Source: Ischnura elegans
Taxonomy: Eukaryota; Arthropoda; Insecta; Odonata; Coenagrionidae
Direction: 5' to 3'
Length of the DNA stretch: 64,000 nucleotides
Assembly: GCF_921293095.1 (NCBI RefSeq)
Contig: NC_060246.1
Coordinates: 140,120,198 to 140,184,197 of the forward strand
Shown in pieces: positions 5,743 to 55,652 of the stretch. Each line of letters starts with the position of its first letter. Position 1 is the first letter of the stretch. The notes beneath the pieces were generated by a model that saw only the letters and a program-made list of their open reading frames with translations, was not told where the DNA came from and made no database searches. The translations under genes were made by a program, and so were the position numbers.

Positions 5743-5750
5743 GAAATTTT
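5743..5750. repeat. Left 8-bp target-site duplication GAAATTTT
   Basis: GAAATTTT immediately precedes the left inverted arm and is repeated exactly at 14906-14913 immediately after the right arm. Merlin/IS1016 elements are known to make 8-9 bp duplications, so the length agrees with the transposase found inside. Confidence 0.9.
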
Positions 5751-7968
5751 GGTTAGTGGTAGTTTTCTGGGGCCAAGAAATGGTCAGGTATACTGGACGG
5801 AAGGGCGAACCTTTTTCGAACCCTTTCTCGGGCTCTCAGCTATAATCCGGGTCCTCGCGGTCCTCGCCGTCACAGTATGAGGTAACCGCTGCCGATATGA
5901 CCTTTCGTAGTACATTTTTTACTTTACTAATGCCAGTACTTGGAGGTAAACAATTACACCTATCATACTCATTGCCGTTGAGCGATTAAATGCGTCTTTT
6001 GATCGAGGTTCTACGATGAGAAATAAGGATTTTACGAAAAGTGATCAAATTGACGCCCATTGCCTCCCCTGACTTGGCAACGCCGAAATTTTGTGAGTGG
6101 AGGGGGGAACGCGAAAAGCTCCTTTTTCTCCCCCACCCCAATTTTTAGCTTGTCCACGTGTTTCAAGAATTCTGTTGACGAGGTTCCTCAAAGGTGTTTG
6201 GCAGGGTGTGAGCTTTCGCTGACCTTCACTTCTTCATTTAATCTTCTGTATCTACATAACTCCATGCGAGTCAAGGGTGTCTGGCACGGGGTGTCCAATC
6301 ACCAAGATCACCACAAGCGCATGGAAAAAGAAAAGCCTGTAATCACCATCTACATAATACCTCTAGGGTGTTTGGCAGAAGGTGACAAATCACCAACATG
6401 CAGCATGCAACAGGACCGCCACATGCACACCGCACGGTCATAGAAATATTAGTGTTTGGCAGGGTGTGAGTTTTCACCGACCTGCACTACTTTATTTATT
6501 CTTCTACATCTGCATAACTCCATGCGAGCAGCCTCTCGGGTCTTTGGCAGGGGGTGTCCAACCACCAGCATGCAGCAAGTAAAAGAATCCCCACCAGCGC
6601 GCTCCCCAATGGAGCAATGGATAAATGAAAGCATATAATCTACATCATTTTTATACGTGCACATTCATTCGTAGTTAAAGTAGATTTATATGATTGAAGC
6701 TATTATCGAGGCTCTTCTATGGCCTAGGGAGACAACAGAATGAAGCCAATATCTACCGCTACATATTACTCTGCAGGCCTCCTACAGAGGTGTTTGGCAG
6801 GGGATGATCAATCACCAGCATCCAGTAAGCAAGAGTCTACCTTCTGGCTACCTTCGTCGGAAAATAAACTGCCCTTGGATTAACATATCAGGTTTAATCT
6901 AGTTGCCAGTCAACGGTCAGACAAAGATTCCTTTCGAGTTGTTCTAAGAGGTTAGTTACACTAAGGACCTGGCAGCTCCTCTCTCTACGCGTTCTAACTT
7001 CTATGCTTAAAGCCTATTTCATGAGGATGACAACATTGGTCGTTATTGATCACCCCCTGCCAAACAGCCTAGTGGTGACTCGCGGGGTATCAAATACATG
7101 AAGATGTATTCCGAATGGGGTCTAACTAAAGTATAAACTAACTAAAAATGGGGGACTGCGATTAGTTACGATTATCTTGACCTGTCATTTCCCGAATATG
7201 TTTACTCCACCATACATCATTATTGAGTCTAACTCCTTCATCTTTTGGAGTCTACAGTCTCAAATTTTGTACCTTGAATGAAATATCTTCGTTGCGGGTA
7301 CGTTATTTTCAAGAATTCACCATTGCGCAATTTTTCAATTTTAACTTTAACTAGCACGCATCGTAACATGCTTGGACTGCTGTCAGTTTGTTCGTTAATT
7401 CACCCCTATCTTCAGTGCAACGGATTTCCGTGACTTTTACTCGACAGATTGATTTTATACTTTGCTTTTATATGAAAAACTAAATTAAAATTCATAAAAA
7501 GTGAACTGTTGCCATCTATTCTCCTGCGAAAAAATGAAATTTGTGGAAACTTCCCGTTTTTTCCGGACAGACCTTTAATATTTACTCCACTCCTCCAGAA
7601 TTATGGATGCCATCTGGATCATTTCTCTTACTTATGAAGTACGGTTTTAGTTATGACTTACGGTCATAGAAATATTAGTGTGGCAGGGTGTGAGTTTTCA
7701 CCGACATGCACTACTTTATTTACTTACGTAATATTTATCTTGCGGACGCCAACATACTACGGAAGATCAGTTCATATAAATAAAATAAGAGAGATAGATT
7801 GTAGAACAGACAGATTCCGAATGTCATATTTTCCACGATCAATTAGAGATTATAACGGCAGCAATAGAACTCGTAGATAGATTGCATGACTTGTAGTGTA
7901 GCCTACTAACCTATGTAAAACTTAATGCATGTTTCTTAATTCAATTATTTTTTCTAACAGCATATAGT
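5751..7968 (+). repeat. Left terminal inverted arm, 2,218 bp
   Basis: Position x in this arm pairs with position 20656-x in the right arm over the whole length, so there is no net indel. Every block compared by eye was identical except one base: G at 7858 pairs with T (reads A) at 12798. The arm ends inward at ...CAGCATATAGT, after which the two sides diverge. Open frames in it (for example 6060-6443 and 7653-7880) recur in mirror image in the right arm and run through minisatellite sequence; they resemble no known protein and are not called as genes. Confidence 0.9.
6185..6640 (+). repeat. Minisatellite of about 86 bp units in the left arm
   Basis: The core TTTGGCAG (one degenerate, CTGGCACG) recurs at 6197, about 6280, 6371, 6455 and 6543, giving spacings of 84-90 bp. 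Units share the order: CTACATAACTCCATGCGAG, a short variable block, the GTTTGGCAGGGGGTG core, a CAATCACCA-like block, then often GCATGCAGCA. Further single copies lie at 6793 (same orientation), 7057 (inverted), and 7659-7725, a near-identical copy of 6437-6502. The mirror copy in the right arm spans about 14016-14471. Confidence 0.85.
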
Positions 7969-8338
7969 CGCAAGTCGCTAATTTTCTTTCCGACTTTCAA
8001 AATGTATTCGTCATGTCATGTACCGATCGAATATCTTCTTCACTTTTTAAGTTTCCTTTTGCTAGATGCACTGACTCTTTATTCCACAGCTGAACCTTCA
8101 ACCGCTTTATAGTAACAACAATCATAATTACACAGATGACATTAGCATTCGACAGGGTCCAATAAGCCAAAAAAAATACTTTAAAAAATCTTATATTGTC
8201 AATAACCTCTTTTACTTTGCTGTGGAGGAAACTGTATGCCAATGATATTTCATGTCATATTTCAATATTTATATAATGATGAAAACGATGTGAAAATCGC
8301 ATCACATTTGCTAATTCTCTATACATTATTTTAAGGTA
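7969..8338. other. Merlin interior, left spacer
   Basis: AT-rich sequence just inside the left arm. No coding signal; the minus-strand frame at 7997-8242 has no recognisable features. Confidence 0.5.
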
Positions 8339-8760
8339 AGTCCGGGTGAGATGCCCCACCGGGAGAGATGCCCCGATCGTATTAGTTTGAAAAAGAACAA
8401 TAAGATTGCTCTGCTGATGATGTCCGTCAATTAGTTGGACAACTAAAGACAAGCTGCATGAGTTTTGCGGTGATTCGATTTTTTTACGCTACTTTAGAAC
8501 AACATTTCAATTGAGTACTCCGAATTATCCGCTCTGCTATTAGAAAGAGCATAACGGTTCTGGTCAGCATCAGTTGAAATGTTTGAATACTTTGAATTAA
8601 CGGGTGAAAACTTGTAGCGGCATCTTTATCAAATGCCCGAGAGCAGTGACAAGTCATCTTAGACGATGTGTTGGCGCGCTGGCTGTAAGGGCAACTCTCC
8701 CGTACTGAAAGGAGATAGATGCCCCTCGGGATAGATGCCCCAGTGCTATATTAAGGTATA
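8339..8760 (+). repeat. GATGCCCC direct-repeat block, likely pogo-like element flank
   Basis: GATGCCCC occurs four times in two pairs, near 8350 and 8368 (GTGAGATGCCCC, GAGAGATGCCCC) and near 8717 and 8738 (ATAGATGCCCC twice), all in the same orientation. Repeated short GGGGCA-type motifs are common in the termini of pogo/Tigger-like elements, and a pogo-like transposase relic begins 0.7 kb downstream. I therefore read this as remnant 5' sequence of that element (inference). No matching right terminus was found. Confidence 0.4.
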
Positions 8761-8802
8761 GATTCCCTACCTGTATTTTGTTCAATTAATTGTAACCAAT
8801 GC

Positions 8803-8990
8803 GATAGAAGCAGTGGCTGATCTATTGGGGGAAGTATGGGGGGGATAAATTGGATACCCGAGAGGGGGGCTATAGCCCCCCCCCCCTTGGGTATCCAATT
8901 TACTACCGGATCGACCCCCACTACTGCTGGAATTTTTAACCCCATTTAACCACCCCTTGTCCTTATCCTGGATCCGCCACTGGATAGAAG
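8803..8990. mobile_element. hAT MITE with perfect 8-bp duplication
   Basis: A 172-bp element (8811-8982) starts CAGTGGCTGATC and ends GATCCGCCACTG. These are inverted repeats of the CAGTGGCGGATC type seen in hAT elements, and it is flanked by GATAGAAG at 8803-8810 and 8983-8990. Its centre is a long hairpin: TAAATTGGATACCC at 8846-8859 pairs perfectly with 8889-8902, and a G6/C-run palindrome around CTATAG lies inside that. It has no coding capacity. It sits in the interior of the Merlin element, probably inserted into the older pogo-like relic. Confidence 0.88.
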
Positions 8991-8999
8991 TAATATTAG

Positions 9000-9420
9000 T
9001 AAATAGAAGAGTGCTAAAGTGCCTCCTAATTTTTAATTGCTTTGATACAGTCTGATTTGTGGAGATGAGTATGGAGACGATCTCCACGATTATCGAATCA
9101 GTTTATTAAAGCTTTTTATGCAATGCCCTTTACAATCTTAGTCCATGACTTATTGCCTCAAGCATAAACAAATCAGCTAAGCCTCCTTGGCAACAATATA
9201 AATAATGATAAAACTATTCGCAACAGGTTCATCATCATCTATAGGTAATCACTTGTTGCAGCAGACACATTCCTCTTCTCAGCACTGCCTCCTTCTGACC
9301 TGCGTAATATTTAAATCCCATCTCCATTAGTGATTGACTAAGTCGTTTGTTTAGGTGATGTCGATCATCGCTCACTATTCACTTGAGTGATTCAATCGAT
9401 TGTTTTTTTATCTTTTTCAC
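9000..9420. other. Merlin interior between MITE and pogo-like relic
   Basis: No recognisable coding segment; probably 5' untranslated or promoter sequence of the decayed pogo-like element that begins just downstream. Confidence 0.35.
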
Positions 9421-9424
9421 TTTC

Positions 9425-10610
9425 GATAATGCTGAGGAGCAATTTAAAGAATCTCTCACGAGGCTTAAAGTTGGTGATAGCGGAATAAGTGAGGCTGCGA
9501 GGTACTTCTAGTCCCCTCTCGGACTCATCGCCGATGCAGGCATAGGGTAATGCAAGCAAAGCTTTAGGTCCAATTGGCATGGAGCAGAAAAAGCGTCTCG
9601 TCAGTCATAATCAACGCCTGGAAAAATCTGGGTTTGCACCTGATCGAGAGACTAGTATATCAATAGCCTATCAGTATGCTGAAAAGCTTGTCCTTCAATG
9701 TAGAGCTGAAGATGTCGGGTTGTGAGTGGCTTAATTCATTTAAAAAAATCCAGAACTTAGTGCTAGGCAGTCTTAAGGGTTGTCAACTGCTAGAGGTGAA
9801 GGTATGACTAGATAAAGCATTAGTCACTTCTTTAAAATACTCTCAGAATTATTTCAGGAGAATGATTTCTTTACCAGGCCAGCCAACGCCTACAATATGG
9901 GCGAGTGTGGTTGTCGGCTAAATAACGTCCTGGGGAAGATTTTATCCACAAAATGTGCTAAGGATGTTCAGATTCTGATATCTATGGAGAGAGAAAAAAC
10001 CAACACCGTGATTACGTGCTGCAACGCTGAAGAGCAAGTTCTTCCTCATTAATGTTCAAAGGCGTGTAGGTGTACGAATGGATGGATTTTTCGCGTGAGG
10101 TATAATGCCTGCCATTAGTGATTCAGGATTTGGTTTCTCCCAATGGCTAGTCGTTTAAACTCAGCCAATTAGTGATTCATTGTAATGTATAGTGTCAAAT
10201 GCTTTGAACTTCACCGACAGTGTCAATCCCTACATGGCACCCATTAACATGGCTCAAATGCAATAACGACCCATACAAGGAGACCTTCATGCGAGGGGTG
10301 GTGAGTGCGGGAGTCGGAATAAGTTCTCATCAGGGGGTAACGTTAGGCCATGAGAATCTAAGAGCGTGAGTCCTACAATTCTGAAAAATGAGGGAAAGGT
10401 GGTCTTACTCACTTTTCCCTTCGTCTCATGAAGGCCATCTGCTGTTCCTGACTCGAGATAAGGGCTACCTTTGCAGTGTCGGCAAAGTGTGCGCAAAGAG
10501 ACTGACCACCAATATGCGTCACAGGAGGTCACTAATCACAGCAGCAATTAAGCTTTTGAGCATAAATATACAGAGCTTTCAGCCAGGGAAATGGGAACAC
10601 CCATTCCTAA
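9425..10610 (+). pseudogene. Pogo/Jerky-like (Tc1/mariner superfamily) transposase relic
   Basis: Translating the plus strand across frameshifts gives the domains of a pogo-type transposase in order. First is a Psq-type helix-turn-helix, with ESLTRLKVGDSGISEAARYF at about 9438-9509. A CENP-B-like second DNA-binding segment follows (LEKSGF, then SIAYQYAEKL, about 9580-9690), then a KNPELSARQ stretch (about 9747-9773). The start of the DDE_1 domain is next, with YNMGECG in place of the usual N-x-D-E-T/C-G, so the first catalytic Asp reads Gly here. An EREKTNTVITCCNAE strand follows, where the family has a VTVxxxxNAxG pattern. Near 10385-10430 KVVLLTFP matches the (V)VLLCxPPHTTH block. There are many stops and frameshifts. 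It is clearly dead and older than the pristine arms of the host Merlin element. The frame at 10388-10651 is part of this relic. Confidence 0.82.
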
Positions 10611-10642
10611 ATTCCCAAATGCAGCCACCAACAATGCCAAAT

Positions 10643-10678
10643 GTCACGTGACTACCTTCCAAACCTTTATATATAAGG
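10643..10678 (+). promoter_or_regulatory. Probable promoter of the Merlin transposase
   Basis: A perfect palindromic E-box, GTCACGTGAC, lies at 10643-10652. A strong TATA element, TTTATATATAAGG, lies at 10666-10678, about 55-65 bp upstream of the transposase ATG at 10732, leaving room for a short 5' leader. Spacing and motif quality support a compact RNA polymerase II promoter dedicated to this gene; use is not shown. Confidence 0.6.
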
Positions 10679-10731
10679 AGAGGGCGTCGCAGTTGTTCGC
10701 ATACTTCTCAATTATTGACATCCAGTAGGAG

Positions 10732-11625
10732 ATGGAGTTCATGGCTAGTATTTCCTTGTTCCGGGAGCATATCGCTCTCGTAGGGATAGTCAATTTTCTA
10801 CTAACTTTGGGAATCATTCCTAAAGCGAAGAGATGCGGATGTGGAGGCTTGCGAGCTGTGAAGTCCAAGGGCAAGGGCAGGGTTCCCACTTACAGCTGTA
10901 GGAATCCGGAGTGCCTGAAGTCGACCACCATAAAGGCGCAGACTTTCTTCGCAGGATTTCATTCCAGCATAGCCGATGTTATGGCGGTTGCTGTCGGCTG
11001 GCTGAATCGCTATCCTGCCGATGTCATTGCGATGGAAGTACGGCTGGAAAGACACACTGTGGCAAGAATAGTTTCCAGCTTGAGGGAGCTCATTCTTGTA
11101 TGGCTACAGGAGGAGAGTCGGCAGATAGGGGGCCCAGGACACATCGTAGAAATTGACGAGAGCGCCTTTGGTCGCCGGAAGTACAATCGTGGCAGGATGA
11201 CCAGGACCAAGTGGGTATTGGGAGGAATTGATAGAGGAACCCGAGAAACCTTCCTTTGTCATGTTGATCGACGAGACGCTTCCACACTCAACGAGGCGAT
11301 CCAAAAGTTCGTCAAGAAGGGGTCGATAATTAAGACGGATATGTGGAGGGGTTATAGTGGGCTGGCTGACTTGGGATATCACCACGACGTTGTAAACCAC
11401 TCGGTCAACTTCGTTAAGCCAGGAGAAAAGTTGACCCACACCCAGAATATAGAAAATTTGTGGTCTACAATAAAGAGGGATATGAGGAGAAGGATCGGTA
11501 GAATATGCGTGGAGTCCTTTGAGACACATTTAGTGGAATATGTGTGGAGAAGTAGGCACCATAAAAAGAAGGAATTGTACGCTGATTTTTTTAGAGCGTT
11601 GACATACTTTTATCCAAATAAATAA
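10732..11625 (+). CDS. Merlin/IS1016-type DDE transposase, intact
   Basis: A 297-codon uninterrupted frame that would catalyse cut-and-paste of the surrounding element in the nucleus. The N-terminal part has a zinc-ribbon-like Cys set (C35, C37, C56, C61; CGCGG then SCRNPEC). A helical DNA-binding region of about residues 80-125 follows. The catalytic domain has the family blocks EIDESAFGRRKYNRGR (D142), WVLGGIDR (161-168), TDMWRGY (D203), VNHSVNFV (221-228) and HTQNIENLW (E241). The spacings D142-D203-E241 fit the D-D-E arrangement of Merlin and bacterial IS1016/IS1595 relatives, and the length is in the usual 250-350 range. The ATG at 10732 is chosen because it follows a TATA box by about 60 bp and starts the open frame; a second ATG lies at codon 4. 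No stop, frameshift or missing catalytic residue is visible. Whether it is spliced or expressed cannot be told. Confidence 0.93.
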   Translation: MEFMASISLFREHIALVGIVNFLLTLGIIPKAKRCGCGGLRAVKSKGKGRVPTYSCRNPECLKSTTIKAQTFFAGFHSSIADVMAVAVGWLNRYPADVIAMEVRLERHTVARIVSSLRELILVWLQEESRQIGGPGHIVEIDESAFGRRKYNRGRMTRTKWVLGGIDRGTRETFLCHVDRRDASTLNEAIQKFVKKGSIIKTDMWRGYSGLADLGYHHDVVNHSVNFVKPGEKLTHTQNIENLWSTIKRDMRRRIGRICVESFETHLVEYVWRSRHHKKKELYADFFRALTYFYPNK

Positions 11626-11626
11626 A
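11617..11626 (+). terminator. Poly(A) signal overlapping the transposase stop codon
   Basis: The sequence AAATAAATAAAA contains overlapping AATAAA hexamers (11617-11622 and 11621-11626), and the TAA stop (11623-11625) lies within the second. The transcript would have a very short 3' UTR, a compact arrangement typical of small DNA transposons. Confidence 0.5.
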
Positions 11627-11945
11627 ATATATAAGAACCTGACAAGGCTTTTAGCCGCTCATGTGTTTGACAATGCTTACATCGTCTGTGATCGTAGCTT
11701 ATTGACAATGCCCTTTTCAGGGCTACCTCAGGTATTGGTTTGATTGGCTTTTATTTGAATGGTCATTCAAATTGATATTAGCGGTAGACTTGAGAGCGTA
11801 CAACAGTTCTGTAGATAACTTTAATTTGGTGGTACCCAATAGTGCATTTTTAACATTCATGGCCTTTTCGCTTCCGTTCTCATCACATTTTTTACTCACT
11901 GAAGAGAGAAGAAGACTAAAGTGTCATTCCTGGTGAAAGGGGTAA
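11627..11945. other. Merlin interior downstream of transposase
   Basis: No recognisable gene or domain between the transposase and the LINE fragment; AT-rich, with a few T-rich runs. Confidence 0.4.
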
Positions 11946-12430
11946 AGTGATCTGAGTGTCGTTAATACATCAGATTCATCATTTCAAATAGCAACCGTAC
12001 CAAATAGAGGAGAGAGTATTCTTCATTTATTAGCGACAAATATACCTCATCAGGTAATAAACGTGAGCACTGTTGAGGGAATAAGTGACCATAAGGTAGC
12101 AATAGCAAAGTTGTCTCTAAATACCATTGGAAGTTTTAAAACGGAACGTACAATTTTCATTTTTAAAAAAGCTTATTTTGATTGGTTTAAGAGTTATCTG
12201 AAAAATGCTTTCCCCCTGTTTCAATAATCAATGGTAATGCAAAAGGTAGTGGGTACTTGGAAAGCTTTTATATCGCTCGTAACTTTGGGAATATATAGCT
12301 ACATCCCTAGTAAAACAAAAAAGAAGGTAGCGAACCGGGATGGTATTACGCGGAAAGGAGAAATTCATTGAGGCGACAGAGAGTATGCAATACAAAAATA
12401 AAAAGAGTCCCTATAAAGAGTCACGGATTT
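11946..12430 (+). pseudogene. LINE endonuclease-to-linker fragment
   Basis: An open stretch of about 93 codons (11946-12224) reads ...NRGESILHLLATNIPHQ...VEGISDHKVAIAKL.... This matches the end of the apurinic-like (EEP) endonuclease domain of non-LTR retrotransposons, where the family has S-x-L-D-L-x-x-T-N and a catalytic G-I-S-D-H. The G-I-S-D-H block is intact. After a frameshift, IYSYIPSKTKKK followed by a basic stretch matches the FIPSKTxxxKxxPW linker between endonuclease and reverse transcriptase. The start of the endonuclease and the whole reverse transcriptase are absent, so it is a dead internal fragment. It is inside the Merlin interior, so it was either inserted or captured. The clade is uncertain; CR1/Jockey-like is plausible. 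Confidence 0.78.
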
Positions 12431-12480
12431 ATCCCCTAATGATCGCGACTTAATAATAAACTAAAAATGTACTGGTGGTT

Positions 12481-12640
12481 GGTCACCCACTGCCAAACAC
12501 CCGAGAGGCTGCTCGCATGGAGTTATGCAGATGTAGAAGAATAAATCTACATCTACATAATACCCTGCGAGCCACCTCTAGGGTGTTTGGCAGGGGGTGA
12601 TCAATAGCCAGCATGCAGCATGCATTTGGACTCCCACATG
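12481..12640. repeat. Extra minisatellite units in the Merlin interior
   Basis: Two units of the arm minisatellite lie outside the inverted arms and are oriented head to head. CTGCCAAACACCCGAGAGGC near 12491-12510 is on the minus strand, with text that continues through GCATGGAGTTATGCAGATG as in the right arm at 14111-14150. TTTGGCAGGGGGTG at 12585-12598 is on the plus strand, followed by GCATGCAGCATGCA. They show that the repeat spreads independently of the arms. Confidence 0.8.
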
Positions 12641-12687
12641 CACACCGCACCGTCCAAAAAACGTCCCGTATAATAACAAACTATACT

Positions 12688-14905
12688 ACTATATGCTGTT
12701 AGAAAAAATAATTGAATTAAGAAACATGCATTAAGTTTTACATAGGTTAGTAGGCTACACTACAAGTCATGCAATCTATCTACGAGTTCTATTGCTGTCG
12801 TTATAATCTCTAATTGATCGTGGAAAATATGACATTCGGAATCTGTCTGTTCTACAATCTATCTCTCTTATTTTATTTATATGAACTGATCTTCCGTAGT
12901 ATGTTGGCGTCCGCAAGATAAATATTACGTAAGTAAATAAAGTAGTGCATGTCGGTGAAAACTCACACCCTGCCACACTAATATTTCTATGACCGTAAGT
13001 CATAACTAAAACCGTACTTCATAAGTAAGAGAAATGATCCAGATGGCATCCATAATTCTGGAGGAGTGGAGTAAATATTAAAGGTCTGTCCGGAAAAAAC
13101 GGGAAGTTTCCACAAATTTCATTTTTTCGCAGGAGAATAGATGGCAACAGTTCACTTTTTATGAATTTTAATTTAGTTTTTCATATAAAAGCAAAGTATA
13201 AAATCAATCTGTCGAGTAAAAGTCACGGAAATCCGTTGCACTGAAGATAGGGGTGAATTAACGAACAAACTGACAGCAGTCCAAGCATGTTACGATGCGT
13301 GCTAGTTAAAGTTAAAATTGAAAAATTGCGCAATGGTGAATTCTTGAAAATAACGTACCCGCAACGAAGATATTTCATTCAAGGTACAAAATTTGAGACT
13401 GTAGACTCCAAAAGATGAAGGAGTTAGACTCAATAATGATGTATGGTGGAGTAAACATATTCGGGAAATGACAGGTCAAGATAATCGTAACTAATCGCAG
13501 TCCCCCATTTTTAGTTAGTTTATACTTTAGTTAGACCCCATTCGGAATACATCTTCATGTATTTGATACCCCGCGAGTCACCACTAGGCTGTTTGGCAGG
13601 GGGTGATCAATAACGACCAATGTTGTCATCCTCATGAAATAGGCTTTAAGCATAGAAGTTAGAACGCGTAGAGAGAGGAGCTGCCAGGTCCTTAGTGTAA
13701 CTAACCTCTTAGAACAACTCGAAAGGAATCTTTGTCTGACCGTTGACTGGCAACTAGATTAAACCTGATATGTTAATCCAAGGGCAGTTTATTTTCCGAC
13801 GAAGGTAGCCAGAAGGTAGACTCTTGCTTACTGGATGCTGGTGATTGATCATCCCCTGCCAAACACCTCTGTAGGAGGCCTGCAGAGTAATATGTAGCGG
13901 TAGATATTGGCTTCATTCTGTTGTCTCCCTAGGCCATAGAAGAGCCTCGATAATAGCTTCAATCATATAAATCTACTTTAACTACGAATGAATGTGCACG
14001 TATAAAAATGATGTAGATTATATGCTTTCATTTATCCATTGCTCCATTGGGGAGCGCGCTGGTGGGGATTCTTTTACTTGCTGCATGCTGGTGGTTGGAC
14101 ACCCCCTGCCAAAGACCCGAGAGGCTGCTCGCATGGAGTTATGCAGATGTAGAAGAATAAATAAAGTAGTGCAGGTCGGTGAAAACTCACACCCTGCCAA
14201 ACACTAATATTTCTATGACCGTGCGGTGTGCATGTGGCGGTCCTGTTGCATGCTGCATGTTGGTGATTTGTCACCTTCTGCCAAACACCCTAGAGGTATT
14301 ATGTAGATGGTGATTACAGGCTTTTCTTTTTCCATGCGCTTGTGGTGATCTTGGTGATTGGACACCCCGTGCCAGACACCCTTGACTCGCATGGAGTTAT
14401 GTAGATACAGAAGATTAAATGAAGAAGTGAAGGTCAGCGAAAGCTCACACCCTGCCAAACACCTTTGAGGAACCTCGTCAACAGAATTCTTGAAACACGT
14501 GGACAAGCTAAAAATTGGGGTGGGGGAGAAAAAGGAGCTTTTCGCGTTCCCCCCTCCACTCACAAAATTTCGGCGTTGCCAAGTCAGGGGAGGCAATGGG
14601 CGTCAATTTGATCACTTTTCGTAAAATCCTTATTTCTCATCGTAGAACCTCGATCAAAAGACGCATTTAATCGCTCAACGGCAATGAGTATGATAGGTGT
14701 AATTGTTTACCTCCAAGTACTGGCATTAGTAAAGTAAAAAATGTACTACGAAAGGTCATATCGGCAGCGGTTACCTCATACTGTGACGGCGAGGACCGCG
14801 AGGACCCGGATTATAGCTGAGAGCCCGAGAAAGGGTTCGAAAAAGGTTCGCCCTTCCGTCCAGTATACCTGACCATTTCTTGGCCCCAGAAAACTACCAC
14901 TAACC
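12688..14905 (-). repeat. Right terminal inverted arm, 2,218 bp
   Basis: Mirror image of 5751-7968 with equal length and, in all blocks compared, the same sequence apart from 12798. It includes the mirror copies of the minisatellite (about 14016-14471) and of the arm open frames (12776-13003, 13992-14207, 14213-14596), which are not called as genes. The terminal bases are ...CCACTAACC. Confidence 0.9.
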
Positions 14906-14913
14906 GAAATTTT
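14906..14913. repeat. Right 8-bp target-site duplication GAAATTTT
   Basis: Exact copy of 5743-5750 immediately outside the right arm. The pre-insertion locus would be sequence up to 5750 joined to 14914 onward. Confidence 0.9.
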
Positions 14914-27099: not shown

Positions 27100-28403
27100 T
27101 TCTGATTAAAAACTTTTGGGCTATGTCACCGCGTCAATGCTTTGGGTGGCCCCAACGTTTCCCGACCGATGCTGGTCGCTTTTTCAAGGGATTATGGAGA
27201 GATGGGAATTTAAGATCTTTTATATAGGTGTCTGTGGCAGGAGGTGGAGGGAGGGGGGCCAGAGGTTGGGGGAGTGGGTTGCTGCTTATTTCTTCTTATT
27301 ACGGGTTGCCAAGTACGGCTAATTTTAATGCCGGTGTCTCTGTTGAAATTATTCTTATCTTCTTTGGATATTTCAATGGCTTCTCTGACGAGTCTCTGTT
27401 TAAAACCTTTAACTTTGGCGAGGATTTTGACTTCCTTGAGGTCGATGATGTGGCCAAGCGCTGCGTGTTCGGCTACCGCGGACTTAGTTGATTGCCCCAG
27501 TCGAATCGCTCTCTCGTGCTCTTCTAGGCGTGTTTTGACCGACCTGCCTGTTTCGCCGATGTAGTTCTTCCCGTAGGTCTGGCAAGGAATTCGGTAAACC
27601 CCTTCCACTTGGAGTGGAGTTCTGTCCTTGACGGTGTTTAGGAGATGTTTTATCTGTATGTGAGGCGAGAAGATTGTCCTCTGAAATTTTCGAAGGATAT
27701 TTCCTATTACGTCTGTCGTCCCCTTAATGTATGGCAGGAAGCCTTTCATCTGGTCGCTGAGGTCGTTTATGGATGAGTTCGCGGCTTCTGCGGCGTTGTT
27801 TTTCATTTTGTTCTTTTTGATGACTTTATTAAAAGTACGAGAGATAACTCTATCGTCGAATCCATTTCCCCGTAGAATGGCCTCTAGCTTTCGTCTCTCT
27901 TCGGCAAAGTTTTCCTGGTCGCTTATTGTGTAGGAGCGGTGAATCAAGGTGTTTATCACTCCATTTATTTGGGCTGGGTGATGATGAGATAGAGCATGCA
28001 GGTACCGATTTGTTGATGTTGGTTTTCGATACACTGTATGCCCTAATGTTCCATCCGTTTTCTTTTCCACGAGCACGTCCAAAAATGGAAGTTTTCCGTC
28101 TTCCTCCACCTCCATTGTAAACTTAATTTTGTTGTTAATCCCGTTCAAATAAGTATAAAATTCTTGAAGCTTTTCTCTGCCGTGCGTCCAAATTATAAAA
28201 GTGTCGTCGATGCATCTGACCCAAATCTTAGGCTTGTGGGCGGCGTTTTGAATCGCTGTTTCTTCTATGCGTTCCATGAATAAGTTTGCAATTGCTGGGG
28301 AGAGAGGGGAACCCTTCGCTGCTCCAGACGTCTGTTGATAAAAATTATTCCTCCCGCGCACCCGCAAAAGTTTTAACGAAGAAGTATTAGTTTCGTTTGT
28401 TGC
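27100..28403 (-). mobile_element. 5'-truncated Penelope-like retroelement
   Basis: The element runs on the minus strand from about 28403 to about 27100. It contains the 3' two-thirds of the single Penelope-type ORF (27210-28367) plus a short 3' region. That region has a stem-loop, CGACC-GATGCT-GGTCG on the plus strand at 27163-27178. The first in-frame stop upstream is at 28404-28406. Before it, ETNTSSLKLLR still resembles the sequence that precedes the conserved YxQxxG block, so truncation lies close to 28400. Beyond that, the sequence is an unrelated CpG-rich stretch. No duplication or inverted long-terminal-type repeat was found. Confidence 0.85.
27210..28367 (-). CDS. Penelope-like RT and GIY-YIG endonuclease, 5'-truncated
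   Basis: A 385-residue open reading frame, uninterrupted but missing its N-terminal RT motifs. Residues 10-25 (YQQTSGAAKGSPLSP) are the RT block after motif 3. RCIDDTFIIW (51-60) carries the catalytic Asp pair (D54, D55). LPFLDVLV (93-100) and YRKPTSTNRYLH (113-124) are the following Penelope-type RT/thumb blocks. The C-terminal GIY-YIG endonuclease is present: GVYRIPC (256-262), YIGETGRSVKTRLEEH (269-284), H301/H306, and REAIEI (328-333) with a candidate catalytic Glu. The tail is Pro/Thr-rich. Penelope proteins are usually well over 600 residues, so about half is lost. The frame begins at a TTG, not a true start, so this should be read as a partial gene that could not function alone. A C-terminal domain this well preserved suggests a fairly young insertion. 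Confidence 0.88.
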   Translation of the reverse strand: MRVRGRNNFYQQTSGAAKGSPLSPAIANLFMERIEETAIQNAAHKPKIWVRCIDDTFIIWTHGREKLQEFYTYLNGINNKIKFTMEVEEDGKLPFLDVLVEKKTDGTLGHTVYRKPTSTNRYLHALSHHHPAQINGVINTLIHRSYTISDQENFAEERRKLEAILRGNGFDDRVISRTFNKVIKKNKMKNNAAEAANSSINDLSDQMKGFLPYIKGTTDVIGNILRKFQRTIFSPHIQIKHLLNTVKDRTPLQVEGVYRIPCQTYGKNYIGETGRSVKTRLEEHERAIRLGQSTKSAVAEHAALGHIIDLKEVKILAKVKGFKQRLVREAIEISKEDKNNFNRDTGIKISRTWQPVIRRNKQQPTPPTSGPPPSTSCHRHLYKRS

Positions 28404-54253: not shown

Positions 54254-54865
54254 GTGTGGAAAAAGGGCCTTATTACACCTATACGCAAGGTCAGTAAACC
54301 CGTAAATCCCTCAGATTTTCGACCTATCTCAATTCTCTGCGGCCTATCAAAAACACTAGAGAGAATTGTTCATACTCAAGTTTTTGAATATCTCAAACTG
54401 CACGATAAACTTGATTCTTATCAGTCGGGCTTCCGTAAAGGCTTTAGTACCCAGACTGCCTTGATCAAAGTCACACACGACATTCGTCTCGCCACCGACA
54501 ACAAACTGATCACACTTATGGTATTATTTGATTTCAGCAAGGCATTCGATCGAGTGAACCATTCTCTGCTCTTACGTAAACTGAAATCCCTCAGTTTCTC
54601 TAGTTCCGCCCTGAACTGGTTCCATTCCTACTTGACGGGCAGAACTCAAGCAGTCAAGGGCCAGGGTAGTGACATATCTTCTTGGCTCCCGGTCTCATGC
54701 GGTGTCCCACAAGGCTCCGTCCTCGGACCTCTCTTGTTCACTCTGTATACTCTCGATCTGACTAAGAGCATCACTCACTGTAAATATATGCTCTACGCAA
54801 GACGACTTACAAATATATGTTCATTCTACCGTAGAAGAGCTTCCATACAAAATCCACATGATTAA
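54254..54865 (+). pseudogene. LINE reverse transcriptase, N-terminal part
   Basis: In-frame text upstream of the GTG at 54254 reads FPA then VWKKGLITPIRK, the start of the RT domain. Then come DFRPISIL (residues 21-28), YQSGFRKGFSTQTAL (about 56-70), FDFSKAFDRVNHSLLLRKL with the first catalytic Asp (about 91-109) and GVPQGSVLGPLLF (about 148-160). The next block should be the Y-A-D-D catalytic loop. Here it reads YARRL, so both Asp are lost, and the frame then slips and ends. The element therefore cannot encode an active RT. Motif wording fits the CR1/L2/Kiri group better than RTE or Jockey. Confidence 0.85.
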
Positions 54866-55016
54866 CTCAGAAATTCGCTCAATATGCAGCTGGGCTGATT
54901 TAAACTGCCTTCAGTAAAACCCAAACAAAACCCAAGCTATAATTTTTTGTAATAAAAGACTTCTAAACACAATTGCTTATGAAAGCCTCCCAAATTTAAG
55001 TGTCGCTTCCACCACT

Positions 55017-55652
55017 GTGCCGGTTACCAAGACTGTAAGATATCTTGGACTCACGCTCATCTGCAATCTATCATGGGATCAGCATGTGCTCGAAGTATGT
55101 AATAAAGGGAATAAGGCTCTTTATTTATTGAAACTACAAAAGAAAAATCTCCCTATTTCCACGAGTATTATGCTTGTCACACGTGTTATCTTCCCCATTA
55201 TTGATTATTTTATACAAGTCTATAATGACTTACCTATTGTACTTGAAATGTGTTTGCAACGGTTAATTAACTCCTGTGTTAGATTTATATTTGATTTACG
55301 TAGAGATGAACATTTGTCCAAATTCTACACTGATCTGAATTGGTTACCTCTTCACAGCCGAAGGGATTATATCCTGGGATCTTTTCTGTTCTCCTTATTC
55401 CAAAAACAGACTCCTGTATACCTGTACGAATTATTCATCCCCCGCAAAAAAGTTACTGGAATTTCCACCCGCCGTGTTTCTGACCTTCAAATTCCCCAAG
55501 CCCGCACTAATATATATTTCAAATCTTTTCATCCAACTGCGTCTAGATTCTGGAACTCTCTTCCGCCAAATATAAAGTCGTCAAAATCACTTCAGTCGTT
55601 TAAAAGAAGGCTGTACTCGTATTTGAAGTCTGGGCTTAATTCAGTCTCCTAA
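55017..55652 (+). pseudogene. LINE ORF2 C-terminal part
   Basis: A continuous frame that resumes the same protein after about 150 bp of frameshifted sequence. VRYLGLTLICNLSWDQHV (about residues 8-25) is the post-RT YLG motif followed by the LSWxxH block. RLINSCVRFIF, DLNWLPLHSRRDYI and FNRASRFWNSLPP-type text (here ASRFWNSLPPNIKSSKSLQSF, about 183-203) form the conserved C-terminal region. It ends at a normal-looking terminus. With the first part it accounts for about 55-60% of a usual ORF2; the endonuclease is absent. Confidence 0.85.

Follow-up and report, generated by a model that had tools for sequence, protein, structure and literature searches.

The DNA analysed here is a 64,000-nucleotide stretch of the genome of the odonate Ischnura elegans (assembly GCF_921293095.1, contig NC_060246.1, positions 140,120,198 to 140,184,197), referred to below as the window, and the subject is a Merlin-type DNA transposon of 9,155 bp that occupies positions 5751-14905 of it. 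The 8-bp word GAAATTTT flanks the element on both sides (5743-5750 and 14906-14913) in a perfect match and forms its target-site duplication. Two random 8-mers are identical with a probability of 5.45e-5, as computed for the 64-kb window, so that such a match at exactly both end points is very unlikely to have arisen by chance. The element opens with GGTTAGTGG and closes with CCACTAACC, which gives a GG start at both ends; the use of GG ends as a mark of Merlin follows the published description of these elements. The initial annotation of this locus had reported both the perfect duplication and the matching GG-starting ends, and was right on each. The element is a real insertion, and plausibly a recent one.

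The two ends are inverted arms of 2,218 bp, the left at 5751-7968 (+ strand, outer end GGTTAGTGGTAGTTTTCTGG) and the right at 12688-14905 (- strand), which together make up 4,436 of the 9,155 bp and enclose an interior of 4.7 kb. They are 99.95% alike, the sole mismatch setting position 7858 (G) against position 12798, and the arm length first proposed is thereby confirmed. A first BLAST alignment of the arms gave 2,225 bp with two mismatches (99.91%); the greater length arises because the alignment enters seven bases of the duplication, a word that is in part a palindrome. Assemblers are known to stumble over long inverted repeats that are almost identical, and the arms might on that ground be an assembly artefact, or else an inverted duplication of host DNA with no transposon involved. 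This is exceedingly improbable: both arms end exactly at the same 8-bp word, with flanks that differ, and an inverted-duplication error would not be expected to halt at a shared 8-bp repeat; the 4.7-kb interior does not suit a simple fold-back read; and the family of the enclosed gene makes duplications of just this kind. Very improbable, too, is a composite transposon, in which two separate 2.2-kb Merlin-type elements in opposed orientation would move the DNA between them. Bacteria have such units, and KolobokP is an animal element of composite-like form (PMC9587614), but the inner arm ends here read GCATATAGT and carry no inverted copy of the outer GGTTAGTGG, so that an arm is not a two-ended element of its own. 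At the inner arm edge TATAGT is repeated within 8 bp on the right side and not on the left, and a template switch at this edge is possible.

A dispersed repeat family extends through the left-arm region at 6194-7722 (+ strand), its limits set by arm-arm and arm-interior matches, with members at 6194-6304, 6359-6439, 6434-6498, 6452-6577, 6751-6835, 7042-7111 (inverted) and 7660-7722. Arm-arm repeats account for 470 of the 2,218 arm bases, a figure that rises to 565 once interior matches are counted, and identity between members of one arm is 78-95%. A palindromic pair of the same family lies just inside the right arm, at 12472-12654, and reaches 96% identity with the copies in the arms. None of 20 mononucleotide-shuffled arms contained such repeats (the shuffles used here, and in the end scans below, preserve base composition only). 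Old, diverged repeats thus stand within arms that are nearly identical to each other, and the duplication or homogenisation of the arms must therefore be much later than the origin of the repeats. If the arms undergo conversion, their identity is no clock for the age of the insertion.

The transposase gene lies in the interior at 10732-11625 (+ strand) and is an open reading frame (ORF) that runs without a stop over 297 amino acids (aa), well beyond the length of any other in the interval; the runner-up, of 141 aa, is antisense to it. A presumed TATA box, TATATAA, lies upstream at 10670-10676 (+ strand), and overlapping AATAAA words starting at 11617 and 11621 form a presumed poly(A) signal at 11617-11626 (+ strand); the functions of both are deduced from their letters. 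The protein matches the Pfam domain DDE_Tnp_IS1595 (PF12762) at 59.7 bits against a cut-off of 27, and NCBIfam NF033547 at 97.2 against a cut-off of 75, and it bears the catalytic triad D142-D203-E241; the intact DDE transposase first proposed is therefore upheld. Pfam, searched at E values up to 1, reported neither a Zn_Tnp_IS1595 domain nor the THAP domain of P-type transposases. Four cysteines, C35, C37, C56 and C61, form a possible metal site, as judged from sequence; in an alignment of 49 homologue rows C35 is kept in 37, C37 in 29, and C56 and C61 each in 43.

Among its relatives, the best matches are a 297-aa protein that differs at 31 of 297 residues and the I. elegans protein P0002, 98% identical over 72% of the transposase, with differences at 4 of 214 residues. 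Relatives from Ladona fulva come next (59-77% identity over 31-70% of the query, five among the matches listed), and a bacterial IS1595-family protein, annotated as ISAcra1, is 35% identical over 60% of the transposase. The odonate matches, together with those of the Penelope-like ORF described below, point to a damselfly as the likely host. An IMG/VR scan with the transposase gave six pattern matches, none related; exact scans with a 20-bp element end and with a 22-bp repeat motif gave no matches. A search of Protein Data Bank sequences yielded four weak matches (one unrelated protein, E 0.44-0.6). For the predicted transposase fold, one listing of structure matches shows 50 rows, all retroviral integrases, and the Foldseek list also has an ISCth4 transposase at rank 36; no Merlin or IS1595 structure is among the structure matches listed, which excludes nothing.

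An intact ORF does not prove activity, and a similar protein, with only 4 differences in 214 residues, exists in the same species; the element might therefore be derived from Merlin but dead, its last jump having been made with the transposase of another copy. This account differs from the one favoured below in autonomy only, and it is rather unlikely given the full-length ORF, the intact triad, the likely promoter and poly(A) signals and the near-identity of the arms.

The initial annotation had called the element a giant Merlin, and the two parts of that description fare differently. As to size, the term suits it beside the Merlin lengths consulted and fails beside giant transposons, among which 9.2 kb is modest. 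As to identity, the element shares with the Merlin superfamily the DDE_Tnp_IS1595 domain, the DDE triad, 5'-GG ends, an 8-bp duplication and the lack of a Zn_Tnp_IS1595 match, and its assignment to Merlin stands: Merlin elements are described as starting with GG, as making duplications of 8-9 bp and as being without the zinc domain of IS1595 (PMC8101967). In two respects it departs from its relatives. The terminal repeats of the founding Merlin set measure 24-462 bp (PMC8101967), a range that is descriptive rather than defining; as the initial annotation had held, the 2,218-bp arms lie outside what is usual, at nearly five times the longest repeat quoted. The copies of one recent Merlin family are 2.57 kb long (PMC8101967), unlike the 9.2 kb seen here with its nested passengers. 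No Merlin with kilobase arms was found among the matches listed in a search of open-licence titles and abstract openings (Repbase and subscription papers lay outside its scope), and the word Merlin is absent from the main text of a review of giant transposons (PMC6431247).

It could be argued instead that the ends belong to the transposase of another superfamily, and that the Merlin gene is cargo, captured by this foreign carrier or inserted into it. Other passengers do sit in the interior, a related gene exists elsewhere in the species (P0002), and the link from gene to ends is itself inferred. GG ends with an 8-bp duplication are nevertheless a Merlin product, and the gene is the longest ORF of the interval by a wide margin. 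A further question is whether the gene lies within a smaller Merlin with ends of its own, which the initial annotation had named as an outcome that would undo its claim. When 16-bp ends accompanied by duplications of 8 or 9 bp were sought in the interior, no real case emerged, and the best interior pair of 24-bp GG/CC ends was at chance level, being equalled in 120 of 200 shuffles. A wider GG scan recovered the true ends and one further pair (7117/13539), which was dismissed because it lies inside the arms and is a consequence of them. Since the interior scans gave no convincing pair, no credible ends were found other than the outermost, and the cargo explanation is improbable.

The passengers themselves agree with the earlier claim that the element carries other elements. 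A 172-bp miniature element at 8811-8982, with ends CAGTGGC and GCCACTG, is nested in the interior and has its own perfect 8-bp duplication, GATAGAAG, at 8803-8810 and 8983-8990; 12 of its first 14 end bases match, and it contains an inner inverted repeat. From its end letters and duplication length it is presumably of the hAT type. At 9495-10049 (+ strand, limits approximate) lies a decayed transposase-like coding relic of 185 codons, with six stops as read, whose single homologue (P0241) is 57% identical over 81% of it (E 3e-44). Pfam gave no match to relic pieces 1 and 2 or to their X-joined form, and only sub-threshold transposase matches to P0241 itself; by eye the relic looks pogo/Tigger-like. 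A LINE relic guessed by eye near 11960-12220 was dropped after Pfam returned only weak, unrelated names. A motif containing GATGCCCC occurs four times on the + strand of the window, all at 8342-8374 and 8718-8741. Beyond the element, the window holds a 385-aa ORF at 27210-28367 (- strand), presumably Penelope-like, in which a partial reverse transcriptase and a GIY-YIG-like domain score below their Pfam cut-offs; its relatives occur in many insects, odonates included, the best I. elegans match being 50% identical over 74%. A probable piece of a non-LTR retrotransposon lies at 54254-55652 (+ strand), where an ORF with an RVT_1 match (E 5e-27), a reverse-transcriptase domain, precedes another ORF to which Pfam gave no match.

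Taken together, these features make it likely that the locus holds a single insertion of a foldback-like, putatively autonomous Merlin with long arms and an open IS1595/Merlin-type gene that likely moved it. Arms so far beyond the published Merlin range likely mark a Merlin on its way to the foldback form that other families have taken. For a jump, the transposase would attach to the GG-starting ends and excise the element, which would then be joined to cuts staggered by 8 bp in new DNA. The arms have probably lengthened inward and been kept alike with one end serving as template for the other, a process proposed for Galileo, whether through gene conversion or through gap repair after excision. 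Passengers are tolerated in the interior, the hAT-like miniature element having jumped in and the older transposase-like relic having come to lie beside the gene. It is possible, if somewhat doubtful, that an autonomous foldback Merlin evolved independently in odonates, with kilobase arms constantly re-copied, their repeats serving as extra docking sites and the interior ferrying other elements.

Several points weigh against this interpretation. That this transposase acts on these particular ends, and that the element is autonomous, is read from sequence. The analysis covered a single copy, and the window contains no other with shared ends: BLAST at E 0.01 found no second copy, the sole match being one 20-bp stretch. 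Two terms of the initial annotation, lineage and possibly still mobile, thus go further than this one copy shows. The arms are repeat-rich, yet not uniquely so: of 19 pieces of equal size taken from the rest of the window, 4 also contain internal repeats (87-375 bp) and 15 contain none. The mark of classical foldback elements, large tandem arrays, was not found in the arms, where tandem repeats amount to just one 37-bp stretch per arm; the arms are in this respect unlike classical foldback arms, and of the term foldback-like in the initial annotation, the long arms and the dispersed repeats stand while the tandem arrays do not. An exact 8-bp duplication does accompany one GG/CC pair of the interior (10335, 12046); this pair was rejected as a smaller Merlin, since its ends agree at just 7 of 16 positions and chance alone would supply about 0.3 pairs of this kind (125 x 44 site pairs x 5.45e-5). 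Two bacterial IS1595 genes, scanned up to about 400 bp to either side, showed no pair of ends flanked by exact duplications. Lastly, the longest-armed Galileo copies never kept the transposase gene (PMC3573991), so that a long-armed copy with an intact gene does not follow the Galileo model.

The foldback form has been described for P-type elements (Galileo) and Mutator-type elements (Tm1), and the Tc1/mariner-like Mcmar is seen as a step toward it (PMC3169594). If the favoured interpretation is true, this Merlin, its gene intact and its arms 2.2 kb long, adds another superfamily to this form, and supports the view that arm length is an outcome of repair and conversion rather than of ancestry. 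Long-armed transposons can produce inversions, as Galileo does (PMC2775673). The open gene makes this copy suited to asking if a transposase works from kilobase arms, and if the repeats help.

With bacterial IS1595-family insertion sequences, which occur in bacterial plasmids, the element shares a homologous transposase; with foldback-like elements it shares arms that are very long relative to the whole, though not arms built of tandem repeats. Tetris, a foldback element of Drosophila virilis, likewise has modular inverted arms with internal repeats, but is apparently non-autonomous and carries tandem repeats of about 220 bp in its arms (PMC4079207). Galileo of Drosophila also combines long inverted arms with internal repeats; its arms range from 18 bp to about 1.25 kb in D. 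mojavensis, their growth having been proposed to occur through recruited internal sequence (PMC3573991), and contain several transposase-binding sites (PMC3688188). It differs in belonging to the P superfamily, where the transposase here is of IS1595 type, and in having 7-bp flanking sequences (PMC3573991). Tm1, a Mutator/Foldback element of Meloidogyne, has a Phantom/Mutator-type transposase and ends with a variable number of a motif of about 14 bp, both unlike the element described here, but it makes duplications of 9 bp and, as here, houses its transposase gene within foldback-type ends, which in Tm1 are composite (PMC3169594).
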